From: Bacteroidales bacterium
GTDB lineage: Bacteria; Bacteroidota; Bacteroidia; Bacteroidales; F082
Assembly: GCA_017630195.1 (NCBI GenBank)
Contig: JAGBVS010000016.1
Location: forward strand, 1-45,350
Direction of reading: 5' to 3'
DNA length: 45,350 bases
The first letter of the stretch is position 1, and each line of letters opens with the position of its first letter. The position numbers and the translations under genes are program-made. The notes under the pieces are model-generated. The model was not told the DNA's origin. It did not search any database and saw only the letters and a list, made by a program, of their open reading frames with translations. Shown here in pieces: positions 14,422 through 16,665 of the stretch.

Positions 14422-15060
14422 ATGAAAAAAATATTTCTAACATTTATTTGCGTTATCTTAATGACAATCAGCGCCAATGCGCAATACAAATCATTTCAAT
14501 TCGGATTAAACGTTTCTCCGGGATTAAACATCACGAAACTAAATAGTGATTTTCTTGGCAACGGCTTGAACAAGGCTTCGTTCAATTGGGGATTTAACGG
14601 CAATTTTTACTTCGTGGAAAACTACGGTATTTCAACCGGTTTTAATATCAAAAACATCAACGGCGGATACTCGTATAACGACAGCATCAACGGAAACATT
14701 AAATGTAGCATAAGCAACCAATATCTCGAGATTCCTATCAGTATGACAATGAGGACCGAAAAAATCGGCAAGACAAGAATTATAGGAAACATCGGATACG
14801 GAATAGGATTCTGTCTGAGTCATAACGAAGAACATAAAAATATTGATAACATCACAATAAAAGAGCAACCTGAATTTTCAAAAATAAGAAACTCACTTAT
14901 TATTAAATTAGGTATAGAGTATAATATTTACAAATCAAGCTGTATCACCGCAGCATTTGTCTTTAACAACAATTTTACTAACATATATAAAAAAGACAAC
15001 CCTCTTGAACATAATGTCATGTTAAACACTTTATGTATAGAGTTAGGTTTCATATTTTAA
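14422..15060 (+). CDS. Outer-membrane beta-barrel protein, PorT-like
   Basis: Secreted protein of 212 residues with signal peptide MKKIFLTFICVILMTISANAQ. Its strand pattern (FGLNVSPGLNITKLNSDF, YFVENYGISTGFNIKN, ending LCIELGFIF) fits the outer-membrane beta-barrel group. It is not closely similar to the two barrels transcribed in the other direction. It precedes nadE by 9 bp and may share its transcript, though no functional link is apparent. Confidence 0.75.
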   Translation: MKKIFLTFICVILMTISANAQYKSFQFGLNVSPGLNITKLNSDFLGNGLNKASFNWGFNGNFYFVENYGISTGFNIKNINGGYSYNDSINGNIKCSISNQYLEIPISMTMRTEKIGKTRIIGNIGYGIGFCLSHNEEHKNIDNITIKEQPEFSKIRNSLIIKLGIEYNIYKSSCITAAFVFNNNFTNIYKKDNPLEHNVMLNTLCIELGFIF

Positions 15061-15069
15061 ACATAAGAA

Positions 15070-16665
15070 ATGAAAATTACATTAGCGCAAATTAATTTCA
15101 TTGTCGGCGACATTGAAGGCAACAAAGAGAAAATCATCGCTGCTGCCCAAAAGGCGAAGGGCTCTTCATTAGTGGTTTTCTCCGAATTATCATTATGCGG
15201 AGTTCCTCCTTATAATATGTTATCTTACAACGACTTCATCGATCGTTGCGAGAAAGCTATAGACGAGATTGCCGAAAAATGCGACAACATTCCTTTGCTA
15301 ATAGGCGCACCTGTGAGAAACACTACCGGGAAAGGCAAACCTCTTTTCAACGCTGCAATATTTCTACATCAGGGCAAACGTCAGATTTTCAAGAAGAAAA
15401 ATGTTTCTTATTCAACATATTTTGAACCTGCCGACGAAACCAATATCTTGCAACTCGGTTGCATGAAAGTCGCCGTCACCATTGGCGAAGACCTTTATAA
15501 TATAGGTAACGACGAATTTCTCATGACAAACCGCATCGACGATTTTGAAGAGAAACCAGAGATTATCGTCAACCTTGCAGCCGACCGCTTTGATTATCAA
15601 CGTGCCGCCAAGAGAAGAGAGATTCTTCGCATGACAGCCCTAAAACATGAGATTCCGCTTATTTTTGTAAACCAAGTAGGTGGAAACGCCAACCTCATCT
15701 ACGACGGCGGTTCGATGGTATTCGGTTATAATGGCTACATCGTCAAGAGTCTTCCTTTCTTCCAAGAAGAAGTATCAACATTCGACTGCGAGCTTTTCAT
15801 CTCGATGAAAAAAGAAGACGAGCAAGTCATTCCAGAGAAGATGGAACTTATCCACGACGCTCTCGTTCTTGGAATACGCGACTTCTTCCATAAACAAGGT
15901 TTCAAAAAAGCCATACTCGGATTATCGGGAGGCTTAGACTCAGCACTCGTAATAGCATTGGCAGCCAAAGCATTAGGCGCAGAGAACGTATTAGGAATAT
16001 TGATGCCTTCACAATTCTCATCAGACCACTCCGTCAGCGACGCTATCGCTTCAGCAGAAAACCTCGGATGTCCTTATCATATCGTTCCGATAAAACCAGC
16101 ATTCGACACTTTTGATGAAATGCTGAAGCCTATCTTCAAAGACATGCCTTTCGACGTGACAGAAGAAAACATACAAGCACGAAGCAGAGGCCTCATCGTG
16201 ATGGCGATATCAAATAAATTCGGCAATATCTTATTGAACACCAGCAACAAGAGTGAAGCTGCCGTCGGTTACGGAACATTATACGGCGACCTCTGCGGAA
16301 GCTTGTCTGTAATAGGTGACATCTACAAGACAGAAGCCTTTGAGTTGTGCCGTTACATCAACCGTGACAAAGAGATAATTCCTTGGCACACAATCAACAA
16401 GCCGCCATCAGCAGAGTTGCGTCCAGGTCAACAAGATACAGATAGTCTGCCTGACTATCCAATTTTGGATGCTATTTTATATCAACATATCGAATGTAAC
16501 AAATCTGCTAACGAGCTCATAGCTTTAGGTTATGATGAAGCATTAGTTAACAAAGTTGTGAGAATGGTTTATAGAAACGACTTCAAACGTTTCCAGATTG
16601 CACCTGTGTTGGCAGTGTCGCCTAAGCCATTTGCTATGAGAGAGATGCCTATTGTCAAGAAATAA
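15070..16665 (+). CDS. nadE: NAD+ synthetase with an apparently inactive glutaminase domain
   Basis: Last step of NAD synthesis: amidation of nicotinate adenine dinucleotide with ATP. The 531-residue protein has an N-terminal nitrilase-type glutaminase domain (about 1-245) and a C-terminal synthetase domain with the P-loop LGLSGGLDSALV near residues 281-292. In active enzymes the glutaminase triad is Glu-Lys-Cys, with Cys in a ...TICED... motif. Here Glu39 (FSELSLCG) and a candidate Lys109 are present, but the motif reads VAVTIGEDLYN with Gly139 (codon GGC) in place of Cys. The rest of the domain, including NLAADRF and VNQVGGNANLIYDGG, is well kept. By inference the enzyme must use free ammonia. 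It overlaps the next gene by 14 bp if that starts at TTG 16652. Confidence 0.93.
   Translation: MKITLAQINFIVGDIEGNKEKIIAAAQKAKGSSLVVFSELSLCGVPPYNMLSYNDFIDRCEKAIDEIAEKCDNIPLLIGAPVRNTTGKGKPLFNAAIFLHQGKRQIFKKKNVSYSTYFEPADETNILQLGCMKVAVTIGEDLYNIGNDEFLMTNRIDDFEEKPEIIVNLAADRFDYQRAAKRREILRMTALKHEIPLIFVNQVGGNANLIYDGGSMVFGYNGYIVKSLPFFQEEVSTFDCELFISMKKEDEQVIPEKMELIHDALVLGIRDFFHKQGFKKAILGLSGGLDSALVIALAAKALGAENVLGILMPSQFSSDHSVSDAIASAENLGCPYHIVPIKPAFDTFDEMLKPIFKDMPFDVTEENIQARSRGLIVMAISNKFGNILLNTSNKSEAAVGYGTLYGDLCGSLSVIGDIYKTEAFELCRYINRDKEIIPWHTINKPPSAELRPGQQDTDSLPDYPILDAILYQHIECNKSANELIALGYDEALVNKVVRMVYRNDFKRFQIAPVLAVSPKPFAMREMPIVKK

Follow-up and report, generated by a model that had tools for sequence, protein, structure and literature searches.

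The nadE gene and its glutaminase site

The window, by which we mean the whole analysed stretch of 45,350 nucleotides from a Bacteroidales bacterium, carries on its forward strand a gene for a two-domain NAD synthetase, preceded by a gene for an outer-membrane protein. The features referred to below are:

14422..15060, + strand: gene for an outer-membrane beta-barrel protein, the conserved upstream neighbour of nadE or of the stand-alone domain (domain search, locus comparison)
15070..16665, + strand: nadE, two-domain NAD synthetase of 531 amino acids with ATG start (open reading frame, domain search)
15070..15855, + strand: N-terminal nitrilase-fold domain (CN_hydrolase, PF00795), residues 1-262, a presumably dead glutaminase (domain and fold match)
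15184..15186, + strand: Glu39, the triad glutamate, kept (alignment)
15394..15396, + strand: Lys109, the triad lysine, kept (alignment)
15397..15420, + strand: lid (YRE) loop, shortened to the 8 residues that separate Lys109 from Phe118 (alignment)
15484..15486, + strand: GGC codon for Gly139 at the nucleophile position, which is Cys in relatives (codon, alignment)
15496..15498, + strand: Tyr143 at the position of the glutamine-site Trp (human Trp179, Cys+4; alignment, role from an excerpt of PMC6946656)
15520..15534, + strand: Leu151 to Arg155, the dead-type signature of the genus, in place of Tyr and Pro (alignment)
15583..15588, + strand: Asp172-Arg173 in place of Ser-Pro (alignment)
15856..16662, + strand: C-terminal NAD synthetase domain, residues 263-531, intact (domain match, dN/dS, alignment)
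15925..15942, + strand: synthetase P-loop SGGLDS (SGGxDS in 19/19 Gly-type fused proteins)

The CN_hydrolase and NAD_synthase models match residues 3-241 and 264-507, respectively, and the NCBIfam model NF010588 (NAD+ synthase) is matched with 554.8 bits against a cut-off of 479. The best PDB matches of an AlphaFold model built with 17 aligned sequences (pLDDT 81, pTM 0.87) are the two-domain enzymes 3n05, 5kha and 4f4h. The C-terminal extension of the fused type is present, with the end of the protein aligning through residue 529 to 5kha, the NadE of Acinetobacter baumannii. A second NadE was not found in the window genome assembly, which is 84% complete.

In an alignment with 5kha and relatives, Gly139, within VAVTIGEDLYN, lines up with the cysteine of the ICED motif. 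Codon and alignment column thus agree with the first-pass annotation, which had read glycine in place of the expected cysteine and had noted that Glu39 and, as a candidate, Lys109 remain; both occupy positions of the now incomplete Cys-Glu-Lys triad. Its question whether Gly is lineage-wide can be answered for the genus. The domain is present in 43 of 99 genomes, 18 times fused to a synthetase and 25 times as a stand-alone protein, and every copy has Gly at the nucleophile position (18/18 and 25/25). Elsewhere in the family, 74 genomes were searched, of which 51 were left out of the counts, and Cys was found in 22 of the 23 that were read, as it was in 6/6 outgroups. G004, a genome of a second genus in the family, also has Gly.

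The description of the change as a point loss in an otherwise complete domain did not hold up. The YRE loop of human and Mycobacterium tuberculosis NadE is described as touching glutamine, gating the tunnel and communicating with the synthetase site (PMC6946656, excerpt). This lid comprises 14 residues in all 22 Cys relatives read in the family and in all 6 outgroups, against 8 in window NadE, in which several lid columns have no counterpart; residues 113-122 of the model have pLDDT values below 50. Tyr45 is replaced by Val, and substitutions also affect Tyr151, Ser172, Pro173 and Trp143, the last corresponding to human Trp179, one of two residues said to define the glutamine site (PMC6946656, excerpt). 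Among the 18 fused Gly proteins of the genus, lid length ranges from 6 to 22 residues and is still 14 in six. The loop of 22 residues belongs to L006:6001-7635, a fused relative in which the lid is longer rather than shortened.

Nitrogen donor of the fused enzyme

Judged by its sequence, window NadE is very probably a fused (type F) NAD synthetase that uses ammonia only and carries a catalytically dead, yet still selected, glutaminase domain. The sequence losses thereby support the central proposal of the earlier annotation, a lost glutaminase site and hence presumable use of ammonia alone. The synthetase domain would adenylate NaAD with ATP and then take up free cytosolic ammonia; fused NAD synthetases can take ammonia from solution in vitro (PMC3376133, excerpt). 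With its nucleophile, most of its glutamine lid and the aromatic wall of its pocket missing, the glutaminase domain would have lost the ability to hydrolyse glutamine. Purifying selection acts on both halves of the protein: the synthetase domain has a median dN/dS of 0.045 (49 of 153 pairs), and the ratio of divergence between dead half and synthetase half is 1.65 in fused Gly proteins, about the same as in Cys proteins (1.57). The dead domain would be retained for a non-catalytic job, in the fused form probably as a scaffold stabilising the synthetase. To this extent the earlier suggestion of a structural or channel-gating role is plausible, but it must be incomplete, since 25 relatives have kept the dead domain and lost the synthetase domain.

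De Ingeniis 2012 distinguished four classes of NAD synthetase (fused, clustered, remote and none) and treated the fused type as glutamine-utilising (PMC3376133, excerpt). Window NadE shares with fused NadE-Gln (type F, NF010588; 5kha, 4f4h, 3n05) both domains, their order and fold and an intact synthetase motif, but it lacks the nucleophile and the glutamine-site Trp, has a shortened lid and is probably unable to use glutamine. The NF010588 naming and the domain layout alone predict glutamine use, which is misleading here. Free ammonia as expected nitrogen donor would be shared with the NH3-dependent NAD synthetase (NadE-NH3, type N), which has no glutaminase domain, whereas in window NadE the domain is there, under selection and apparently dead. 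The nearest working analogue may be mammalian CPS1, an amidotransferase that likewise went ammonia-only, lost its catalytic Cys and kept the dead domain (PMC4655335, excerpt); in CPS1, Ser has taken the place of the Cys in a domain that was retained (PMC4655335, PMC7657897, excerpts). The same combination of a lost catalytic Cys and a domain kept under selection was found in window NadE. CPS1 differs in that its glutaminase is of class I, which is another family, and that it has a detoxifying role and is activated by N-acetylglutamate (PMC4655335, excerpt). Stand-alone survival of the dead domain, as seen in relatives of window NadE, is not described for CPS1 in the same excerpt. Among the open-access titles and abstracts listed, none concerned an NAD synthetase naturally lacking the Cys, and the paper excerpts consulted mention no such enzyme.

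Delivery of glutamine-derived ammonia to the synthetase by another glutaminase, working in trans, is very unlikely. The genome does encode two further members of the nitrilase superfamily that have the usual Cys, but both lie on other contigs, and we take one to be an apolipoprotein N-acyltransferase and the other a small amidase, which counts against such a role; moreover, the fused dead domain would presumably occupy the docking surface. Continued hydrolysis of glutamine by the domain itself through another nucleophile, for example Cys131 or Cys43, appears extremely improbable. Cys131 is new and occurs in 12 of the 18 fused and in all 25 stand-alone copies, but residue 131 is Gly in 6/18 fused Gly proteins and in G004, and column 43 varies, for which a relocated cysteine was rejected. 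In the model, residue 131 precedes the nucleophile position by eight residues and sits just ahead of the strand, and a new nucleophile would also have to act without the lid and the Trp/Tyr wall. An assembly or base-calling error at codon 15484-15486, conceivable in an assembly of 84% completeness, is refuted because all 43 domain-bearing genomes of the genus have Gly, specified by four different codons (GGC, GGA, GGT and GGG).

Ammonia-rich host habitats may have relaxed the need for glutamine, and the first-pass annotation had in this sense related an ammonia-only enzyme to life in an ammonia-rich gut. Among the nine nearest named loci, six are titled as ruminant gut and the other three name no host, and a search of the window genome assembly (84% complete) for the ammonium transporter AmtB gave no match. 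In a comparison of 80 genomes of our own choosing, with the stand-alone genomes outside the set, AmtB was found in 1/37 Cys-less versus 27/43 Cys genomes; counted by lineage, the figures are 1/12 and 12/18 (p 0.002). Loss of AmtB accompanies smaller genomes (median 2.6 versus 3.8 Mb), and at matched genome size (2.8-3.8 Mb) AmtB occurs in 0/10 Cys-less versus 12/22 Cys genomes (p 0.004). Exceptions exist on both sides: the Cys-less genome G391 keeps AmtB, which is missing in turn from the Cys-bearing relatives of families f49 and f115. The pattern fits a habitat in which ammonia never runs short. Ammonia supply alone is no full explanation, however, because two further proteins of the same genome, which we take from our own reading of their sequences and of the Cys motif GICLG/GICYG to be PyrG and GuaA, keep their glutaminase cysteines. 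A genome-wide loss of glutamine use is ruled out by the Cys kept in these two and in the two other nitrilase-family proteins.

Distribution and recurrence of the loss

On a glutaminase-domain tree of the family, built without the nucleophile and lid columns, which are the trait columns, a single Cys-to-Gly change is needed (bootstrap/aLRT 100/97). Of 295 genomes searched across the order, 176 had a match. After leaving out three genomes of the window genus, the nucleophile column could be read in 155 of 173 matches; the 18 unread ones comprise 16 matches that were weak (E above 1e-6) and presumably concern other types of protein, and two fragments at contig ends. Cys is present in 137 of the 155 genomes and absent from 18, of which 11 have Gly, three Leu and one Ser, while in three the end of the strand is cut short. 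These 18 genomes fall in 11 further families, and both states occur within five families, that of the window included. Leu was found in 3/3 fused NadE proteins of family f80 (L232-L234). In family f106 (L224, L227 and L229), the strand is cut short in 3/3, and these proteins score as Asp solely for that reason. L220 of family f4 is an uncertain case, with a Cys one residue ahead of the aligned Gly and Asp in place of the triad Lys.

For counting events, the synthetase-domain tree was chosen because the order-wide glutaminase-domain tree, on which six changes are needed (four forced), joins long dead-domain branches. On the synthetase-domain tree of 106 proteins, 29 of them without Cys, ten changes are needed (8-10 over bootstraps), four of which are forced by well-supported branches. 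This count includes the window genus, and G004 as a separate event, and comes from a tree with an unsettled base and unsettled bootstrap values, on which the window genus does not group with its Cys-bearing family members. G004 stands apart from the window genus on this tree and is joined with it on the glutaminase-domain tree. Because the loss recurs, nature offers a set of cases in which to study under what conditions a cell can do without glutamine as the nitrogen source of an essential cofactor. Control by habitat ammonia likewise becomes testable, with AmtB loss as a marker.

Other Cys-less sequences lose much the same residues, though not each residue every time. Across 19 of them that do not belong to the genus, the share with the residue retained is 5% for Trp143 and for Tyr151, 21% for Ser172, 26% for the lid Tyr, 32% for Tyr45, 42% for Pro155 and 53% for Pro173. 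For Glu39 and Lys109 it is 95%. Their retention could be read as residual chemistry, but it is not remarkable by itself because 105 of 252 columns are invariant among the stand-alone copies; we infer that Glu39 and Lys109 form a buried structural pair rather than supporting residual catalysis.

The stand-alone domain

The 25 stand-alone proteins of the genus (252-273 amino acids) form one clade (100/99) that requires a single change of form on the glutaminase-domain tree (100/99). Since this clade is nested within the fused Gly proteins, the death of the glutaminase site preceded the loss of the synthetase half. The stand-alone genes occupy the place of nadE: in 17/17 loci that were laid out, the barrel gene lies directly upstream on the same strand with an aminopeptidase gene beyond it. 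No remnant of the synthetase persists at these 17 loci, because the following gene overlaps the stand-alone gene or starts at most about 35 bases away. The barrel gene directly precedes the stand-alone gene in 25/25 loci. It lies upstream of nadE in 17/18 fused Gly loci (within 30 bases in 16) and in 21/22 Cys loci read in the family, but in 0/6 outgroups, so that it forms a conserved gene pair with nadE or the stand-alone domain. Its product weakly resembles the TDE1717/PorT models, below their cut-offs. In G140, identical stand-alone gene copies lie on two contigs (G140:C8 and G140:C32; L153 and L152), perhaps an assembly duplicate.

Because the dead domain outlasted a synthetase half that was lost in place, it has a job of its own in the stand-alone clade, and this job is non-catalytic. 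Our likeliest guess is that the emptied pocket binds a small ligand or that the domain contacts another protein. With slightly more doubt than belief, the stand-alone dead glutaminase might be regarded as a new kind of protein in the making: catalysis died, new residues were fixed (Gly139, Leu151, Arg155 and Arg104), the enzyme was shed in place, and the domain now acts as a separate non-catalytic factor, perhaps as a sensor of the glutamine or ammonia state or as a partner of the barrel protein. All steps are represented among living species, namely the live fused, the dead fused, the dead stand-alone and the lost form, which makes the stand-alone domain a rare ordered record of a pseudoenzyme gaining a separate life.

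As an alternative to such an independent factor, the stand-alone domain could be the non-catalytic partner of a single-domain NadE that replaced the synthetase half, which we consider unlikely. A single-domain NadE, only distantly related to the synthetase half (about one third identical), is encoded in 0/18 fused, 23/25 stand-alone and 46/56 domain-free genomes of the genus; the two stand-alone genomes without a match are 62% and 83% complete. This distribution and the existence of two-subunit NAD synthetases (PMC3376133, excerpt) favour a partnership. On the other hand, an NadE of this kind occurs without the domain in the 46 genomes (identity to the query over matched stretches 75-100%, but 50% in G090), and in the 23 genomes having both genes these lie on different contigs. 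Furthermore, the 43 single-domain NadE proteins that were read, of 69, are 246-251 residues long from the aligned start, continue for at most 3 residues past the alignment and lack the extended C-terminal loop of two-component enzymes, and thus the extension for docking. Like the two-subunit type R NAD synthetase (PMC3376133, excerpt), the stand-alone relatives encode a lone glutaminase protein of the NadE type alongside a separate synthetase. Unlike type R, the glutaminase has no Cys (Gly in 25/25) and the synthetase appears to have no docking extension, for which reasons typing by gene content would wrongly suggest the use of glutamine.

That the stand-alone domain is instead a non-functional remnant on its way out seems quite improbable. 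In 56 of the 99 genomes of the genus no copy of the domain was found, and the 46 of these with a single-domain NadE manage without it. In ten flanks taken from genomes without the domain, a barrel gene and the aminopeptidase gene are kept in nine, six of which also retain the phosphorylase gene found downstream of the stand-alone gene; the remaining flank (L176) has the aminopeptidase gene only. Against decay, all 25 stand-alone copies have open frames with a median dN/dS of 0.107 (range 0.047-0.181, from the 185 pairs, out of 300, whose dS could be measured), and Gly139, Leu151, Arg155 and Arg104 are constant in 25/25. In addition, the start codon overlaps the stop codon of the barrel gene by one base in 18/25 loci (seen as TGATG in four).

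Two genomes of the window genus, G100 and G108, each 93% complete, yielded neither a fused nor a single-domain NadE and may salvage NAD or use another enzyme. The single-domain NadE L070:2989-3732 matches Francisella 3fiu, titled NMN synthetase, nearly as well as the NH3-dependent NAD synthetase 2e18, and its substrate is worth checking because the two matches are almost equal.
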